Shown: one piece after another, positions 1-6,488 of the stretch
Numbering within the stretch: the stretch's first letter is position 1
How the letters are laid out: every line of letters begins with the position of its first letter
The notes under the pieces: model-generated
What the model was told of the DNA's origin: nothing
Database searches by the model: none
The model's input: the letters and a program-made list of their open reading frames with translations, nothing else
Made by a program: the position numbers and the translations under genes
Source: Nitrospirae bacterium CG2_30_53_67
GTDB taxonomy: Bacteria > CG2-30-53-67
DNA length: 6,488 nt
Assembly: GCA_001873285.1 (NCBI GenBank)
Contig: MNYV01000031.1
Location: 1 to 6,488, forward strand
Direction of reading: 5' to 3'

Positions 1-1178
1 CCCATCACCTCATGATCGGTATGACAATCAATGCAGTCAAGCTTATATTCACAGCGGGTGAAAAGGGTCATGGGGACATAGTAGTCCTGCAGACGCAGGG
101 CCTCGCCTGAGAGACCGGCCGTCTCATCGAGGTCGGTCCTTTTGTCAAACTGCATGGTGAAGAGGGAATGAACCCCCCGGTTATGGCAATGATTGCACTG
201 CGAATAGGGGATTTTCAGGGTCAGGCGGTGAAACGACCCGTGGCCGGGCTCGTCCCGCCGGATCGTGGGATCGCCGCCCCGGTAATAGGCTTCCTTGTCA
301 TACAGATAGTGACAGGAAGAGCAGCCCGATGCCCTAAAAAGGTAGGGTTGATCCACGCCCCGGCTCCAAAGATGGCATTGATCCGCGCAATGCTGATGGA
401 GTTCTGTGTCCACACGATGTCCCGAAAAGGTATACTCGGCTCCCGTGGGATCCGTACGGATCATCTTTCCCTCTGAATCCGCCGGCAGATCGGACGCTCG
501 GGTATAAGGCAAGGGCCGCAAAGCGGATACGGTTTTCTCCCTGTCCACAGGCTCTTTCCCCCGGATGCCGGCAACTCCATACAAGGGGCGAAGGCTTTTC
601 TGAGCGCCGAAGCTGTAGCGGGGATTGGCAATCTCGCCTGCCTTGGTGGCCATGATCGTGGTCTTGACCCGCTGGATGTGATTTCTCTCCTCCAGAGGAT
701 CGCCCTGGTGGCAGGCCGTGCCGTCCGGCATGGTCCTGCCGCAGCCCTGGTCCGCCACACGAAAATCCGAAGGGTTTCCCCCGCCGATCAGCCCATCATG
801 GGCCGCAGGGAGGGATACGGAAAGCGGATCGCCGCCATGACAGATGCTGCATCCGAAGGTCTCCACGGGATGGGAGTCGCTGATCGGCTCGATGCCGATA
901 TGGCACGAGGTGCACCTTTCTTTTTTCCCGTCTTTCAGAACCACCTCCTGAAGGCCGGGAAGGTCCCGCTTAAGGGCCAGACGCAGGTCGAGGATCTTAT
1001 CCCTTTCCTCACCTGAAAGGCCGCCCGCCTCGAGGGCTTGAAGCTCATGCAACCTTCGGTTCTTATAGATCTCCTGATAGATCTTGTACGGTTTGTTCCC
1101 TTCCTGGACCATGGCCCAAAGGATCGTAAGCAGAACAAGGACCACGAGGATGAGCAGGGTTTCAGGGTACCGGTTCAT
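1..1178 (-). CDS. Membrane-anchored multiheme cytochrome c (3' end beyond window)
   Basis: The frame is open from an ATG at 1178 to the window edge: 392 complete codons, no stop. Residues 7-24 form one hydrophobic segment after a short N-terminus, a Sec signal-anchor that should leave the rest in the periplasm. Residues 30-85 are charged and probably helical. Canonical CXXCH heme sites start at C89, C110, C286, C328 and C382. Two expanded candidates are C264-ADQ-C268-H269 (CX3CH) and C146 to C156-H157 (CX9CH), so the visible part may bind five to seven hemes, with many spare His for distal ligation. It begins 4 bp after the subunit-IV-like gene, and the AGGTGA ribosome site at 1183-1188 overlaps that gene's stop, which supports this start and translational coupling. 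By position it replaces cytochrome f/c1 as electron partner of the Rieske protein (inference). I do not recognise a named family; total heme number is unknown. Confidence 0.9.
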   Translation of the reverse strand, partial: MNRYPETLLILVVLVLLTILWAMVQEGNKPYKIYQEIYKNRRLHELQALEAGGLSGEERDKILDLRLALKRDLPGLQEVVLKDGKKERCTSCHIGIEPISDSHPVETFGCSICHGGDPLSVSLPAAHDGLIGGGNPSDFRVADQGCGRTMPDGTACHQGDPLEERNHIQRVKTTIMATKAGEIANPRYSFGAQKSLRPLYGVAGIRGKEPVDREKTVSALRPLPYTRASDLPADSEGKMIRTDPTGAEYTFSGHRVDTELHQHCADQCHLWSRGVDQPYLFRASGCSSCHYLYDKEAYYRGGDPTIRRDEPGHGSFHRLTLKIPYSQCNHCHNRGVHSLFTMQFDKRTDLDETAGLSGEALRLQDYYVPMTLFTRCEYKLDCIDCHTDHEVM

Positions 1179-1182
1179 GAAC

Positions 1183-1188
1183 TCACCT
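1183..1188 (-). promoter_or_regulatory. Ribosome binding site of the multiheme cytochrome gene
   Basis: AGGTGA on the minus strand lies 4 nt before the ATG at 1178. Its last three bases are the TGA stop of the upstream subunit-IV-like gene, so termination and re-initiation are adjacent. It supports the cytochrome start. Confidence 0.6.
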
Positions 1189-1587
1189 GAAAAGATTGAA
1201 AAACGTCATGACGGCAATCAAGAGCAAAACCAACGACAGCAGCGCAAGGGGGATCAGCCTCCGCTTGAGCGGCGCCGGCCCTTCCTCGGCCTCCCCAGCC
1301 TGAAAGAACGGAAGCGCCATCAGCAGGAGGAATGCCGCCAGCGGAATCAGGACCCCGGCCGCGAGCGGAGGGAGATGGCGGAGGAGTTCCTGCACCCAGG
1401 CGAAAATCCATGGGGCGCTTACATGGGGAGGCGTGGCCGTCGGGTCGGCCATCCCGCCCAGGGGCGCGGGCATGAACAGGGCGAGGGCCATCAGGGCCGC
1501 CGAAGCGGCCAGCATGGATAGAACCTCCATCCTGACCAGGATGTCCCTGGAGACGTATTGAGGTTCCTGCTCTTTCTTTTGTTCCAT
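1183..1587 (-). CDS. Cytochrome b C-terminal domain protein, subunit IV-like
   Basis: 134 residues, somewhat shorter than the roughly 160-residue subunit IV (PetD) of cytochrome b6f. Hydrophobic segments lie at about 22-42, 74-95 and 110-131, matching the three helices of subunit IV. Residues 46-95 align well with the Qo-site region: ADPTATPPH corresponds to the NPxATP stretch, then APWI (58-61) sits where PEWY normally is, followed by QELLRHLPP and a GVL-type helix. It should pair with the b6-like protein upstream to complete a split cytochrome b in the membrane and form the quinol-oxidation pocket with the Rieske protein. Loss of the PEWY glutamate and tyrosine is notable; other cytochrome b lineages also have APW variants (from memory). 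The start is supported by AGGA, 8 nt upstream, and a second AAGGAA abutting the ATG. The gap to the b6 gene is 57 bp. Confidence 0.82.
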   Translation of the reverse strand: MEQKKEQEPQYVSRDILVRMEVLSMLAASAALMALALFMPAPLGGMADPTATPPHVSAPWIFAWVQELLRHLPPLAAGVLIPLAAFLLLMALPFFQAGEAEEGPAPLKRRLIPLALLSLVLLLIAVMTFFNLFR

Positions 1588-1602
1588 TTCCTTCTTCCTA
1601 AC

Positions 1603-1615
1603 CCGGCATAGCCGG
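1603..1615 (-). other. Short hairpin in the b6 to subunit-IV gap
   Basis: CCGGC-TAT-GCCGG is a perfect 5-bp inverted repeat with a 3-nt loop in the 57-bp gap between the two cytochrome b genes. No T-tract follows, so it does not look like an intrinsic terminator. It could affect mRNA processing or stability; it is short enough to be chance. Confidence 0.3.
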
Positions 1616-1644
1616 AACCAAACAGGATTCGAGGGTTCAAGGGG

Positions 1645-2313
1645 TCACAGCGGTCTTCCCGTCCATCCCAGTTTGCTGACCTTCCAAAAATGATAGATCA
1701 TAAAACAGACGACCGTGATGGGAAGCACCACGCAGTGCCAGAGATAGATCCGCTGTATGGAGCCCTGCCCATAGATGGAAGTCCCGGTCAGGACCCGGTG
1801 CAGCGCCTCGCCCGCATAGGGGATCTCCTTGAGGACTCCCAGCGCCACAAACCCCGCCCAGAAGGTCTCCCTGTCATCACGGAGAAGGTATCCGCTGAAA
1901 TCCATGATGAGCGCCAGGGCCATCATGGTCATTCCCACAACCCAGATCCACTGCTTGGCCCCCTGGTAGGAACCGGTCAGGGCCACACGGATCATATGGA
2001 ACAGGATCAGGATGACCATCCCCTGTCCGCCCCAGTAATGAAGATTCCGGATCAGGCCCCCGTAGGGGACAAATTCCGTGATCTCCCGAACCGAAAGGTA
2101 TGGAGAGGCATCTCCGGGACGGTAATAGAACATCAACAAAATACCGGTGACCAGGAGAACAAGAAAAAAATAAAAGGCGAGGCCCCCCAGACAGAACGTG
2201 AAAGTGAGCCGGATGCGCTCTCTGGGAATCAGAGGGGGATGGAGATGAAAAAGAAAGGCGGCCATGCCGCTGTGATCTTTTTTCCTTGGCTTAAAAATCT
2301 CGCAGACCTCCAT
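1645..2313 (-). CDS. b6-type cytochrome b (N-terminal, heme-binding part)
   Basis: 222 residues, the size of cytochrome b6, with four transmembrane helices at about 36-62, 88-112, 120-142 and 188-210. Both heme b ligand pairs are present: H92/H106 in helix B and H193/H208 in helix D. The 14-residue gap between the helix-D pair is the b6-type spacing. GGLIRNLHYW and the end WTGRPL also align with b6. Cys41 in FCLGG aligns with the b6 cysteine that covalently holds heme c_i. The helix-C loop reads GYLLRDDRETFWA instead of the usual GYxLPWDQ. It should carry electrons between Qo and Qi sites as the core of a Rieske/b complex with the proteins encoded on either side. The start is uncertain: the ATG at 2313 has no good ribosome site before it, while GGAGGT lies just inside the frame (2306-2311). 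Confidence 0.93.
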   Translation of the reverse strand: MEVCEIFKPRKKDHSGMAAFLFHLHPPLIPRERIRLTFTFCLGGLAFYFFLVLLVTGILLMFYYRPGDASPYLSVREITEFVPYGGLIRNLHYWGGQGMVILILFHMIRVALTGSYQGAKQWIWVVGMTMMALALIMDFSGYLLRDDRETFWAGFVALGVLKEIPYAGEALHRVLTGTSIYGQGSIQRIYLWHCVVLPITVVCFMIYHFWKVSKLGWTGRPL

Positions 2314-2319
2314 CTCTCA

Positions 2320-2361
2320 GGAAGGGCGGAGCTTTATTGACGGACTTGAGACGACCCTTCC
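2320..2361 (-). repeat. 7-bp inverted repeat upstream of the cytochrome b gene
   Basis: In the 84-bp gap after the Rieske gene, the mRNA would carry GGAAGGG (2355-2361) and, 28 nt later, CCCTTCC (2320-2326), ending 6 nt before the annotated ATG. Pairing would place a stem next to the translation start. The loop is long and the arms short, so the functional meaning is doubtful. Nothing else is recognised in this gap. Confidence 0.25.
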
Positions 2362-2397
2362 GGTACGGTGTGCTTGATGCCGGATGACGGATCCCTT

Positions 2398-2973
2398 TTA
2401 GATTCGAAAATCTTCAGGAACCGGTTTCAGGATGTCGGCAATTATTTCATTCTTCTGATTTTTTGTCAAGAGAACGTGTTGGAGCGGCTTTCTGGCGGGC
2501 CCGGAGACAAAACGTCCGGAAAGTTCAAAACGACTTCCGTGGCAGGGACATTCGAAGAGTCTGATCGCTTCGTTCCAGCGGAAACTACAGCCCAGATGGG
2601 GGCAGTCCCCCTTCAGTGCAAAGAGTCCATTTTCATCACGGACCAGATAGACCCCCTGGATCTTGGCCACCCCGCCCATGGGAAAATCTTCAGAACGCCC
2701 CACGGAAAACCGACTGGGCGCATCTTCCTTCCGGCCCATGGAGAGAAAGGCCTGAACCATCCTGGAAATACCGAGAAAGGAGAGGAGGGAAAATGAGAGG
2801 GTTCCCCATTTGAGGAACCCTCTCCTGCTGAGATGGGTCCCCCGCTCTACAGGAAATGCATGATTGAAGGAATTCTGAGGGGTGATTCTTTCAATGCTTT
2901 GCAGTAGGCATTCCTGATGTGCGGGATTCCCTCCGGGCAGCTTTGAATTCTGGTTTCGGGAACCTTGGGTCAT
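2398..2973 (-). CDS. Tat-targeted Rieske [2Fe-2S] protein
   Basis: 191 residues. Box I is C124-P-H126-L-G-C129 and box II is C142-P-C144-H145-G-S: C124, H126, C142 and H145 would bind the [2Fe-2S] cluster, and C129-C144 would form the disulfide typical of high-potential Rieske proteins. GPARKPL (158-164) matches the conserved GPAPRPL loop. A twin-arginine motif, LSRRGFLKW (48-56), is followed by a hydrophobic stretch (57-72), as in Rieske proteins that keep the Tat signal as their only membrane anchor. The protein should accept electrons from quinol at the Qo site of the cytochrome b encoded downstream and pass them to the multiheme cytochrome. The 47-residue hydrophilic extension before the Tat motif is unusually long. 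No other ATG lies before the motif, and GGAG 6 nt upstream of M1 supports this start. It lies 68 bp after the FeS-subunit gene. Confidence 0.95.
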   Translation of the reverse strand: MTQGSRNQNSKLPGGNPAHQECLLQSIERITPQNSFNHAFPVERGTHLSRRGFLKWGTLSFSLLSFLGISRMVQAFLSMGRKEDAPSRFSVGRSEDFPMGGVAKIQGVYLVRDENGLFALKGDCPHLGCSFRWNEAIRLFECPCHGSRFELSGRFVSGPARKPLQHVLLTKNQKNEIIADILKPVPEDFRI

Positions 2974-2979
2974 AAAAAA

Positions 2980-2983
2980 CTCC
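2980..2983 (-). promoter_or_regulatory. Ribosome binding site of the Rieske gene
   Basis: GGAG followed by six T residues precedes the ATG at 2973. It is the reason to accept the start that gives a long N-terminal extension. The surrounding 68-bp gap (2974-3041) shows no terminator. Confidence 0.55.
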
Positions 2984-3041
2984 GGGACTCTTGCTCCCCT
3001 CTATGAGCCATGGGCTATCCATGACCTGATACCATCGGCCC

Positions 3042-3596
3042 TTAGATGTAATAGATGGCCGGTCCGGTCCCCTTCTCTTTTAGTTTCACATGGTGTTTGT
3101 GCTTGGCCAGGAGCTTGGAAACTTCGCTCTTGGGATCATGGATATCCCCGGCCTGCCTGGCGCCGGTCATGCAGGTATGAACGCAGGCCGTGTCCAGACC
3201 GGCCTTGAGCCGGTGCTCACAGAAGGAGCACTTGTCCACCTTGCCTTTTTTCTCGTCGTAGTATCGGGCATGGTATGGACACGCAGCCATGCACGCCTTG
3301 CAGCCGATGCAACGATCCGGGTTGATGGCAATGATCCCGTTCTCCTCTTGGTAGGTGGCCTCGGTGGGGCAGGCCGCAACACACGGCGGATTCTCACAGT
3401 GCATGCAGTTCCCCGGTTCAAAATCCATTTTGAGATCCGGGAATTTCCCGTTGGGCCCGTGCTCATAGACCCAGGCTCGGCTGTGCCCGACGGGGACGCC
3501 GTTTTCGGCCTTGCAGCCCACCATGCAGGCATTGCAGTCAATGCACTTCGAAAGATCAATGACAAAGGCATAACGTTTATTTTTATTCTCGCTCAT
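3042..3596 (-). CDS. [4Fe-4S] electron-transfer subunit of DMSO reductase-family enzyme (PsrB/PhsB-like)
   Basis: About 184 residues from the preferred start. Numbered from the upstream ATG at 3605, its 16 cysteines form four clusters: C21/24/27/31, C67/70/75/79, C99/102/105/109 and C126/129/141/145. This is the standard four-[4Fe-4S] beta subunit of PsrB, PhsB, TtrB, ArrB and DmsB. It has no signal peptide and should be exported as a folded complex with the Tat-bearing catalytic subunit. It passes electrons between the molybdenum subunit and the membrane partner. The usual NrfD/PsrC partner is absent nearby and a Rieske gene follows. The start at 3596 is preferred because an AAAGGGA element sits 8 nt upstream; the ATG at 3605 directly abuts that element. 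It follows the catalytic gene closely (15 bp from this start, 6 bp from the other). Confidence 0.95.
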   Translation of the reverse strand: MSENKNKRYAFVIDLSKCIDCNACMVGCKAENGVPVGHSRAWVYEHGPNGKFPDLKMDFEPGNCMHCENPPCVAACPTEATYQEENGIIAINPDRCIGCKACMAACPYHARYYDEKKGKVDKCSFCEHRLKAGLDTACVHTCMTGARQAGDIHDPKSEVSKLLAKHKHHVKLKEKGTGPAIYYI

Positions 3597-3604
3597 AATA
3601 GACA

Positions 3605-3611
3605 TCCCTTT
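3605..3611 (-). promoter_or_regulatory. Ribosome binding site deciding the FeS-subunit start
   Basis: AAAGGGA lies between the stop of the catalytic gene and the FeS subunit. It is 8 nt from the ATG at 3596 but overlaps the ATG at 3605, so the downstream ATG (MSENKNKRYA) is the likelier start. Confidence 0.5.
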
Positions 3612-5840
3612 CTACACAGCAGCCTTGGATACGGTGACCATGGTTTGAGAAAGCGCCTGGGACCCGCTGACACGATCGCTGATACTCTCATGCACGTCGG
3701 AGTCGAGCGCCCCTTTGCCGTAAGCGGTGGACAGCCCTTTAGCCTTGTGACCAAAACCGAAATTCATCCAGACGCAGTCCGGACGGATCCCTTCTGTAAC
3801 TTTTGCCTTGAGTGTCACCTTCCCGACCTTGCTCTCTACGGTGACCATGTCCCCGTCTTTGATCCCCCGGGACGATGCCGACGCCGTATGGATCCAGAGA
3901 TGATTTTCGGGGACGAATTCGGCCAGCCACTGGTTGTTCTGCGTGGAGGACTGGGTATGGTGGGCCACCTTGCCTGAAAGGAGATAAAACTGATTCGCCT
4001 CGGGTTTGGGCAGGTCCTTCCACTTCGGGACCGCATCAAACCCGACCTGGCTGAGAGGAGCGGAAACAATTTCTATCTTCCCGCTGGGCGTCTGGAAGAC
4101 ATCCTTCTCAGGCTTCTTGCCCTCCTCATGCCGGGCAGGAACCTCGTAATATCCCTTCTTCTTCAGATCGTCCAACGTGACCTTGAACGGCTTCAACTGG
4201 GCATTGAGATACTCGTCTTCGTTTTTGTAATTGAAGAACTCATTCAGACCGACCCGGTCCCCCAGCAGTTTGAAGATCTCGAGTCCGGACTTGGTGTCGT
4301 AGAGCGGCGGCACCACCGGCTGCCTCAGGAAGACCTTGCTGCCGGCCACGCTCAAGGGATCGTACCGTTCCAGATAACTACTTTCCGGAAGGATCACGTC
4401 CGAGTAGAAGGCCGTGTCATTGGGGATGATGTCAATGGTGACGATCAGGTCCAGATTCTTGATGGCCTCCAGGGTCTTGGCCCGGTCGCAGAGCGACATC
4501 ATGGGGTTCTGCCGGTAGATCAGCCACCCCTTGGCCTGATAGGGCTTGCCCCGAAGAATAGCGTCCCGCAGTTCCTGGAACACACCCAGGTTGAGCGGAA
4601 CCAGGGGATACCTCATGGGAACCGCATCGAGGCGCATGGCAGAGATCCTGGGATAAGGAGGCTGCGGAATGACGCCAAGCTCCATGCCTCCCTCTCCTCC
4701 TGCGGGCATCAGCCCGCCCGGCTGTTTCCAGTTTCCCACCAGGGCATTCAGGATCGCGATGGCCCGTTCGGCCTGGAAGGAATTCAGCGTATTGGAAGTC
4801 CTCCAGTTGGGATGGGCGAATGCCGCCGGAGCCGCCTTGGCAAAACCCCTGGCCACCTGCACAATCTTCTTGGCCGAGATATCGCATTCCTTTTCGGCCC
4901 ACTCAGGCGTATACTCCTTTATCCCCTTTTCCAGTTCGTCAAAACCCTGGGTATATTCATCAACGAATTTCTTATTGTAGAGTTTTTCCTTGATGATGAC
5001 ATGGTTCAACGCCAGGAAGAAGGCGAGATCCCCGCCCGGCCGGACCGGCAGCCATTCCGATGCCTTGGCGGCGGACTTGCTGTACCTCGGGTCGAGCACG
5101 ACCACGTGGGCGCCTCTCTCCACGGCCGCCATAAAATCCTGCGTCTCGGAGTTGGCGATCCCTTCCAGGAGGTTCCGGCCGTTGTAAATGATGTACTTGG
5201 TATTCGGGTAATCCCCGCCTACGGCCTCGGTCCCGTAGGTCATGGTGAACCCCATAACCATGGCATTGAAACAGAGGCTCCTCTGGGTCCCGTAATTGGG
5301 CGTCCCATAGGCCTGCAGGAGATTCTCAAACTGCAATTGCGCCAGATTGTGGGTGGAACTCATGACCATGGCCTCAGCGCCATGCTGCTCCTTGATCTTC
5401 TTCATGCCTTCGGCCACATAGTCCAAGGCCTCATCCCATGAGACTTGTTTGAATTGACCGGACCCTCTTTCCCCTACTCGCATGAGCGGGCTCTTGAGCC
5501 GGTCCGGATCGTAAAGGGTCATGATCCCGGCATTCCCTTTGGGGCAGAGCCTGCCTCGGGAGTTGGGATGCTCCGGATTGCCTTCCAACTTGTAGGCCAC
5601 CCCGTCCCGCACCTTGGCGATCAGGCCGCACCGCCAGACACACATCTCGCAGATGGACGGGATCTCAACATTCTTCCCGCCGGACGTATCGGCGCCCTCT
5701 TCGGCCATGGCCAAAGACCGGAATCCCGTGAGGTTCGACACCATCACGCCGGCCGCGATCGTCCCGGCACTGGCCCCGAGAAAACGACGGCGAGTCACCC
5801 CCTTTTGAAAAGTCTCATTCTCATACCTTCTTGACTTCAT
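3612..5840 (-). CDS. Molybdopterin oxidoreductase catalytic subunit, Psr/Phs-like, Tat-exported
   Basis: 742 residues, about the size of PsrA/PhsA and shorter than typical ArrA/ArxA. A Tat signal (TRRRFLGASAG, 16-26) with a hydrophobic region to about 35 predicts periplasmic export. C64, C67, C71 and C99 bind the FS0 [4Fe-4S] cluster, followed by PKG. C190 (QRSLCFNA) is in the position of the molybdenum-ligating cysteine. GGDYPNTKYIIYNGRN (208-223), AERAIAILNALVGN (357-370), RQNPMMS (443-449) and NLDLIVTIDIIPNDTA with DVILPESSYLE (462-491) are typical bis-MGD-binding segments. Residues 615-740 are the C-terminal dinucleotide-binding domain, including HHTQSSTQNN and GFGH. It should carry out two-electron oxo or sulfur chemistry on an inorganic substrate with the FeS subunit; the substrate cannot be assigned (polysulfide, thiosulfate, tetrathionate and arsenic or selenium oxyanions are candidates). 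The chaperone gene overlaps its start by 20 bp. Confidence 0.95.
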   Translation of the reverse strand: MKSRRYENETFQKGVTRRRFLGASAGTIAAGVMVSNLTGFRSLAMAEEGADTSGGKNVEIPSICEMCVWRCGLIAKVRDGVAYKLEGNPEHPNSRGRLCPKGNAGIMTLYDPDRLKSPLMRVGERGSGQFKQVSWDEALDYVAEGMKKIKEQHGAEAMVMSSTHNLAQLQFENLLQAYGTPNYGTQRSLCFNAMVMGFTMTYGTEAVGGDYPNTKYIIYNGRNLLEGIANSETQDFMAAVERGAHVVVLDPRYSKSAAKASEWLPVRPGGDLAFFLALNHVIIKEKLYNKKFVDEYTQGFDELEKGIKEYTPEWAEKECDISAKKIVQVARGFAKAAPAAFAHPNWRTSNTLNSFQAERAIAILNALVGNWKQPGGLMPAGGEGGMELGVIPQPPYPRISAMRLDAVPMRYPLVPLNLGVFQELRDAILRGKPYQAKGWLIYRQNPMMSLCDRAKTLEAIKNLDLIVTIDIIPNDTAFYSDVILPESSYLERYDPLSVAGSKVFLRQPVVPPLYDTKSGLEIFKLLGDRVGLNEFFNYKNEDEYLNAQLKPFKVTLDDLKKKGYYEVPARHEEGKKPEKDVFQTPSGKIEIVSAPLSQVGFDAVPKWKDLPKPEANQFYLLSGKVAHHTQSSTQNNQWLAEFVPENHLWIHTASASSRGIKDGDMVTVESKVGKVTLKAKVTEGIRPDCVWMNFGFGHKAKGLSTAYGKGALDSDVHESISDRVSGSQALSQTMVTVSKAAV

Positions 5841-6488
5841 TGAATACCTCCTCGAATGGATCGAGTTCCACTGGATGATTAAGGTTCCTATATTCCAGAA
5901 CCATGAAGTTCTTCATAAACCTGGCCAGGACCCTGTAATAGGGTTCATGGCTGTTGGATTGAATCCGCCCGCAGTACTCAGGCAGCCAGTTTAAGATATG
6001 CTCCTCAATAAAACTCAGTTCCCTTTCTCGAAGCAGTCCGCGCGCCTCGGTCTCGCCCTCATCAGCGGCCCTCTTCTCTCCAAGACAGAGAAAACGGAGG
6101 TATTCCATCTGCGTGAGGATATGATCAGGGAGTTCTCCTCCCTCCCGGACCGTAAGGCCGTCCTCGGCATAGATGGAGCGGCAATCCAGGGCAGCTTTAC
6201 CCATCACCCTCCCCTCCTGGTAGAACGATTCGTAGGGCGGGGCCACAAGAGTGGGAAAGGCATTGACAAAAAGCCTGGTATGCTCAGCGGCCAGTCTGGT
6301 CAGCGTCCCGGCCTGGTCCTCATCCTCCTCAAATGCCCTAAGGAGTCCCCGGATCTCTTCCATCAAATCGGGCCTGAGACAACACCGGGCGGAGATTCCG
6401 CAACACTCCTGCACCGTATTTAACAGACGCTCCAGCAGCCGGCCCCCGCACTCCTCGGCGCCGGATGAGACGTCATCCGGCGGACGGA
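5821..6488 (-). CDS. TorD/DmsD-family molybdoenzyme chaperone (5' end beyond window)
   Basis: The frame stays open to the window edge: 24 more codons precede the GTG at 6414, which has no ribosome site, so the true start is probably outside. RPPDD at the edge resembles the start of a TorD-family helix. 221 residues are visible. In numbering from the first full codon (6486), EHTRLFV (68-74), APPYESFY (82-89), ELPDHI (118-123), an EYLRFL segment (128-133) and FIEEHILNWLP (159-169) mark the all-helical TorD/DmsD/NarJ fold. Such cytoplasmic chaperones bind the Tat signal of a molybdoenzyme and hold it until cofactor insertion; the client here is surely the overlapping catalytic gene. The N-terminal part is unusually Cys-rich (C13, C28, C29, C35, C36). 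The gene end contains the strong ribosome site of the catalytic subunit, so the two are translationally coupled. Confidence 0.9.
   Translation of the reverse strand, partial: RPPDDVSSGAEECGGRLLERLLNTVQECCGISARCCLRPDLMEEIRGLLRAFEEDEDQAGTLTRLAAEHTRLFVNAFPTLVAPPYESFYQEGRVMGKAALDCRSIYAEDGLTVREGGELPDHILTQMEYLRFLCLGEKRAADEGETEARGLLRERELSFIEEHILNWLPEYCGRIQSNSHEPYYRVLARFMKNFMVLEYRNLNHPVELDPFEEVFNEVKKV
5846..5852 (-). promoter_or_regulatory. Strong ribosome binding site of the catalytic subunit
   Basis: AGGAGGT, 5 nt before the ATG at 5840, lies inside the end of the chaperone gene. It fixes the catalytic-subunit start and suggests strong translation of the catalytic subunit relative to the chaperone. 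Confidence 0.8.
6459..6482. repeat. Perfect 10-bp inverted repeat with 4-nt loop
   Basis: CGCCGGATGA (6459-6468), loop GACG (6469-6472), TCATCCGGCG (6473-6482). It would form a stable GC-rich hairpin in RNA or DNA, or serve as a symmetric binding site. It lies inside the frame assigned to the chaperone, in its poorly conserved N-terminal part. On the coding strand no T-tract follows, so it is not a standard intrinsic terminator. Confidence 0.6.

Follow-up and report, generated by a model that had tools for sequence, protein, structure and literature searches.

The contig MNYV01000031.1 of Nitrospirae bacterium CG2_30_53_67 (genome G000, contig C31) is considered here over its whole length of 6488 bp, hereafter the window. 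This single metagenome-derived contig, with the genes at both ends cut, carries in one run, all on the minus strand, seven genes encoding a TorD-like chaperone, the catalytic and iron-sulfur (FeS) subunits of a polysulfide/thiosulfate reductase (Psr/Phs)-type molybdoenzyme (together PsrAB), a Rieske protein, a cytochrome b6-like subunit, a subunit IV-like protein and a multiheme cytochrome c. No quinone-active membrane subunit of the PsrC/NrfD or PhsC cytochrome b type is encoded in the cluster, and the molybdoenzyme is therefore not a complete PsrABC. Our comparisons indicate that clusters of this kind recur among relatives, normally with an anchor, and that the window represents a variant in which the anchor was lost. 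We propose, with a probability of roughly 0.45, that in this variant a block of genes was replaced and that PsrAB would be wired, through a putative contact between PsrB and the cytochrome, to the multiheme cytochrome and the Rieske/b6 complex. The loss of the anchor in the window is, for its part, very likely real.

The gap lies between the FeS and Rieske genes. The FeS gene stops at 3042 and the Rieske gene starts at 2973, leaving a spacer of 68 bp (2974..3041, minus strand) with a GGAG ribosome-site-like sequence before the Rieske gene. In the closest relative, Hainich H32-bin143-1 of the same genus (locus L014), this site is occupied by NrfD (12868-13806), within the order TorD, catalytic, FeS, NrfD, Rieske, b6, subunit IV and multiheme cytochrome. 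No NrfD remnant is detectable in the 68-bp spacer, where local alignment performs no better than shuffles. The first-pass annotation had named six genes, from the catalytic subunit to the multiheme cytochrome, and had seen no NrfD/PsrC gene among them: all six are present in one minus-strand run, each with a strong family match, and an NrfD/PsrC open reading frame (ORF) is absent from the window. The run extends past these six to 6486 via the TorD-like chaperone; the operon is tight, its ORFs are intact and its cofactor residues are conserved. An NrfD gene just beyond the window had been pointed to as decisive. As the contig ends there, the search was carried to the genome, a 2.36-Mb draft that is 95% complete, and no orthologue of the L014 NrfD was found in any of its 183 contigs. 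Neighbouring contigs were also sought in G000 via the genes flanking the L014 operon (YedE and a 270-aa cytochrome), with zero matches.

The cluster was compared with 80 related loci, mostly from Chloroflexota, 71 of which reach 1.4 kb or further past the catalytic gene and are readable at this place. An anchor gene follows the FeS gene in 71/71 of them, being NrfD in 56 and cytochrome b561 in 15 (that of L061 identified by tblastn). Cluster content was counted in the 44 loci that continue for 6.5 kb or more downstream: genes for cytochrome b, a multiheme cytochrome and a Rieske protein all lie nearby in 27, and at least one of them in 39. The association is thus recurrent, alongside the anchor and not in its place. 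Accordingly, of the earlier proposal that the molybdoenzyme forms one system with a Rieske/b6 complex and multiheme cytochrome instead of an NrfD anchor, the association is upheld and the window is indeed anchorless, whereas anchor replacement as a type of system is not borne out by the relatives. The gene order suggested as a search target likewise gave a divided answer, as the modules recur together in 27 of the long loci yet are separate in the sister genomes G001 and G002. Both of these encode b6 and the multiheme cytochrome without the molybdoenzyme (subunit IV is clearly seen in G002), and in G001, G002 and G005 a Rieske gene is found at another site, next to a YedE-type transporter; the phylum is represented by eight genomes in the set searched. 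These separate loci lead us to regard the run in the window as an assembly of separable modules. In Dive96_bin10.193 (L013), b6 comes after the TorD, catalytic, FeS and NrfD genes, and neither Rieske nor subunit IV is present at that place.

In several Chloroflexota (L026, L039, L052, L056, L061, L066, L091 and others) NrfD is exchanged for cytochrome b561 (PF01292) downstream of the FeS gene, and in several cases the Rieske/b/multiheme module is still found beside these b561-anchored clusters.

The history of the window seems to differ along its length. Synonymous divergence (Ks) between the window and L014 is 2.2 for TorD, 1.18 for the catalytic subunit, 1.23 for FeS and 1.26 for Rieske, vs 0.34 for b6, 0.59 for subunit IV and 0.44 for the multiheme cytochrome; G000 contig C158, which shares synteny with the stretch immediately upstream of the L014 operon, is 87-90% identical. 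In the catalytic-subunit tree, the window falls outside L013 plus L014 although L014 belongs to the same genus (support 95/93). The TorD, catalytic, FeS and Rieske genes were probably exchanged together for a diverged version that lacked NrfD. Base composition was tried as an indicator of foreign origin and set aside, since the guanine-cytosine content of most block genes, overall (GC) and at third codon positions (GC3), resembles that of the genome, which leaves Ks and the tree as the only arguments for replacement.

This pattern bears on whether NrfD is missing through an error of assembly or binning, which we consider decidedly improbable. The contig is short with both ends inside genes, it comes from a 183-contig draft, and the loss is found in one genome only, all of which would suit an artefact. 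Against it, the divergence breakpoint lies between Rieske and b6, whereas a misjoin would lie at the FeS-Rieske junction; this speaks against a simple misjoin having removed the gene. In addition, the gap coincides cleanly with gene boundaries and has a ribosome-site-like spacer, a lineage-specific change is seen in the FeS subunit alone, and no orphan NrfD fragment occurs in the bin.

The PsrB-type FeS subunit (3042..3605, minus strand; Fer4_11, 2.3e-27; 2vpw_B, E=5.7e-54) keeps all 16 cysteines of the four [4Fe-4S] motifs that mark this type. Relative-rate tests were run with six outgroups, the window being set against L014 or L013; the twelve comparisons have sequences in common and so are not independent of one another. 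Unique FeS changes number 19-27 in the window vs 6-9 in L014 or L013 (chi2 3.6-13.4), while those of the catalytic subunit are even (41-51 vs 41-53; chi2 0.01-1.3). Similarly, among FeS residues invariant in nine relatives, 13/82 are changed in the window and 1/70 each in L014 and L013, and the like count for the catalytic subunit gives 8/260 in the window against 8/260 and 10/262 in L014 and L013 (Fisher p=0.0017 and 1.4e-4 on invariant-residue counts). These comparisons indicate that the FeS subunit alone is accelerated in the window lineage, the catalytic subunit being unaccelerated; that is, the subunit that would touch NrfD changed and the catalytic subunit did not. The change may be due to the loss of NrfD. 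Judged by the positions that are conserved throughout the 71 anchored homologues, the window FeS subunit departs no more than L013 or L014. Position 152 carries an aromatic residue in all anchored relatives. Assigning the changes to the NrfD interface by anchor type was attempted and dropped, since the changed sites are mostly clade-specific and position 104 alone tracks NrfD vs b561.

The same acceleration could reflect relaxed constraint, in which case PsrAB would be a remnant, unanchored or in decay, to which soluble periplasmic cytochromes deliver or from which they take electrons without specificity, and its adjacency to the Rieske/b6 genes would be inherited linkage only. The opposite partial loss in L013, where NrfD is kept and the adjoining Rieske and subunit IV genes are gone from that place, is consistent with this idea. 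We nevertheless hold it to be quite unlikely, because all 16 cysteines and the catalytic motifs are kept, the catalytic subunit is unaccelerated, and Rieske diverged together with the catalytic and FeS subunits as one block.

As the window has no anchor in cis and its genome no NrfD orthologue, the co-encoded multiheme cytochrome is the likeliest partner of PsrAB. In the wiring that we favour, PsrAB would exchange electrons by protein contact with this membrane-anchored cytochrome, which would in turn link PsrAB onward to a menaquinol-oxidising Rieske/b6 complex. A stricter version, in which an anchorless Psr enzyme works only via direct transfer between PsrB and the multiheme cytochrome, within a single supercomplex and with an FeS subunit remodelled for the new partner, appears possible but on the doubtful side.

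The genome does hold eight NrfD-family genes, and one encoded elsewhere might anchor PsrAB in trans, leaving the mechanism unchanged. The best candidate, on contig C114, is 30% identical to the lost NrfD and lies in a second PhsA-like operon, L097 (G000:C114:1-5158), which comprises NrfD, a catalytic subunit, TorD and a multiheme cytochrome with 12 CxxCH motifs, its upstream side being cut by the contig end. To this alternative we assign a low probability, considering that the readable copies mostly sit with partner subunits of their own (two DsrP, hydrogenase, formate dehydrogenase and Qrc/ACIII-like), that none is closer than 30%, and that the anchor is encoded in cis in every readable relative.

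Several points weigh against our proposal as a whole. The loss is seen in one 6.5-kb metagenomic contig of a single genome, and a residual chance of a deletion made in assembly remains; other NrfD proteins encoded in G000 could act in trans; the phylogenetic conflict of the catalytic subunit is marginal (approximately unbiased (AU) test, p=0.048); and Rieske, b6 and molybdoenzyme genes lie apart in the sister genera. In addition, assigning the FeS acceleration to the NrfD interface would call for a model of the complex, and the Thermus thermophilus PsrB, which works with an NrfD-type anchor, likewise has Ala at the changed position 104.

With regard to energetics, reduction potentials are about -260 mV for polysulfide, about -400 mV for thiosulfate and about -75 mV for menaquinone. 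Electrons that have passed a Rieske centre are at too high a potential to reduce polysulfide or thiosulfate. The earlier suggestion that a Q-cycle complex could add proton translocation to such a reduction thus conflicts with established potentials, and polysulfide or thiosulfate reduction driven through the Q-cycle is thermodynamically implausible here. A high-potential substrate (selenite, tellurite, tetrathionate or arsenate), or the oxidation of a reduced sulfur compound, is likelier, and we do not choose between the two directions. A weak hint toward selenium or tellurium comes from the Ext models, nearest for b6, subunit IV and the multiheme cytochrome, and from the selenium YedE model, nearest for the transporter flanking the L014 operon; a weak hint toward sulfur comes from the ATP sulfurylase (Sat), DsrMKJOP and YeeE/TsuA-like genes.

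In the oxidative direction, periplasmic PsrAB would oxidise sulfide, polysulfide or another reduced compound and pass the electrons to the multiheme cytochrome, which would also be fed by the Rieske/b6 complex, with a common acceptor downstream; this amounts to our preferred explanation with its direction fixed. Such a flow is downhill in thermodynamic terms. Genes for YeeE/YedE-type sulfur transporters flank the operon of L014 and in sister genera are found with the Rieske gene, and G000 encodes ATP sulfurylase, DsrMKJOP and a heme-copper-oxidase-like gene (a weak match to cbb3 models). The nearest named model is, on the other hand, a reductase (PhsA), and the combination of DsrMKJOP and Sat would fit sulfate reduction just as well, so that we rate this version as rather unlikely.

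PsrABC and PhsABC share with the window the catalytic and FeS subunits, the A-B gene order, the twin-arginine translocation (Tat) signal, the TorD chaperone and the Cys at the Mo position, but possess a PsrC/NrfD or PhsC-type anchor that is absent here. NrfD-type anchors have been treated as essential to Psr-type enzymes; Duval et al. (2008; PMC2500031) describe PsrC as indispensable and as a component of every Psr cluster. ArrAB without ArrC is a Psr-related enzyme likewise lacking an NrfD-type anchor, although coupling via a co-encoded Rieske/b complex is not described there (PMC2500031). Precedents for a molybdoenzyme served by such a complex are found in two other systems. The haloarchaeal nitrate reductase Nar lies in one cluster with Rieske/cytochrome b and is antimycin-sensitive; it is likewise a molybdoenzyme fed by a co-encoded Rieske/cytochrome b, differing in its Nar-type enzyme and high-potential substrate (PMC4683180). 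In Caldithrix abyssi, the Nap cluster contains Rieske/cytochrome b and NapM, without NapC, and Rieske/cytochrome b plus a multiheme cytochrome has been proposed instead (PMC5317091); this is also a periplasmic molybdoenzyme without a dedicated quinol dehydrogenase, but the enzyme is NapA and a NapGH alternative is present (PMC5317091).

The Chloroflexota clusters contain the same modules in one run (catalytic, FeS, NrfD or b561, cytochrome b, multiheme cytochrome, Rieske); they differ from the window in retaining the anchor, in the order cytochrome b, multiheme cytochrome, Rieske, and in having b6 and subunit IV fused. A literature search for this exact cluster gave nothing explicit beyond a brief remark on Chloroflexi RBG-9, where octaheme genes occur in operons with dimethyl sulfoxide (DMSO)-reductase-family subunits (PMC3971608). 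That a Psr-type enzyme, Rieske/b and a multiheme cytochrome occur together in Chloroflexota and in other lineages suggests a respiratory chain not yet characterised, and an anchorless lineage with Rieske/b beside a same-genus relative with both offers a natural experiment on how Psr enzymes meet the quinone pool.

The catalytic subunit (3612..5840, minus strand; PF00384 (Molybdopterin), E=1.6e-47) has the bis-molybdopterin guanine dinucleotide (bis-MGD) domains, N-terminal 4Fe4S motif and Cys at the Mo-ligand position (Cys190) of the PsrA/PhsA clade, together with a Tat signal. Its best NCBIfam model is PhsA, at 646 bits and under the 694 cut-off, and the best solved match of both catalytic and FeS subunits is the Thermus thermophilus polysulfide reductase (2vpw; for 2vpw_A, E=3e-135, with SLC aligned to SLC). 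The PsrA/PhsA/SrrA clade also includes selenite and sulfur reductases (PMC10100899). The TorD/DmsD-like chaperone (5821..6486, minus strand; PF02613, E=2e-25), whose 5' end is cut by the contig end, shares 45-49% identity with its TorD counterparts at the corresponding site of L014 and L013.

The remaining genes encode the electron-transfer module. The cytochrome b6-like subunit (1645..2313, minus strand; PF00033 (Cytochrome_B), 1.2e-32; ExtP model, 8.1e-62) has, as read from sequence, four b-heme His in b6f-like spacing and a Cys where the ligand of heme cn would lie; a subunit IV-like protein (1183..1587, minus strand; PF00032 (Cytochrom_B_C), 8.4e-09; ExtQ, 5.7e-10) is encoded beside it, as expected of a bc1/b6f-type complex. 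In the window subunit IV, as in L014 and G002, the Qo motif APWI replaces the canonical PEWY, a motif that varies in the family, so that the deviation is not disqualifying. The membrane-anchored multiheme cytochrome c (3..1178, minus strand; ExtM model, 9e-28) has its 3' part cut by the contig end, leaving in the window the first 392 of about 515 aa and 7 heme sites, where a full-length homologue has about 9; it is 86% identical to its L014 counterpart. Its AlphaFold model has a mean predicted local distance difference test (pLDDT) score of 49.5, too low to tell a catalytic from a carrier protein. The closest models for these three proteins, ExtM, ExtP and ExtQ, belong to a selenite/tellurite reduction operon of NCBIfam; the window scores (97/800, 209/290 and 40/150 bits, respectively) fall far under the curated equivalog cut-offs, and the substrate is not implied. 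A probable heme site, CX9CH, is seen at residues 146-157 of the multiheme cytochrome in L014 (15668-17215) and its homologues in this phylum, the Chloroflexota homologues having CX4CH.

The Rieske [2Fe-2S] subunit (2398..2973, minus strand; PF00355, 2.6e-11) has a twin-arginine-like N-terminal anchor, the boxes CPHLGC and CPCHGSRF with the CxHxxC and CxxH ligands, and Phe at the tuning Tyr position. Its nearest solved chains, 9rk4 and 9rk3, are Rieske proteins and seem to correspond to the anammox proteins with reported potentials of +303 and +335 mV (PMC12954380). The Phe was considered as proof of a low potential and ruled out, since an anammox Rieske protein with Phe there has +335 mV (PMC12954380).

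Around the Rieske genes of sister genera (L134, L135 and L136), we noted a conserved locus with a YedE-type transporter, a 371-aa protein with one CxxCH, an FtsX-like permease and an ABC ATPase, with NosL-like proteins near the locus in L135 and L136; these names were given by eye from the sequences. An FmdE-family gene follows Rieske in Chloroflexota clusters (L042:16819-17439, PF02663 with a zinc-finger end; L081:17227-17850 looks alike). Finally, near-repeats at L104:16340-17603 (same genome) translate as 'LFSWMALS...FNPCFHGWPSST'.

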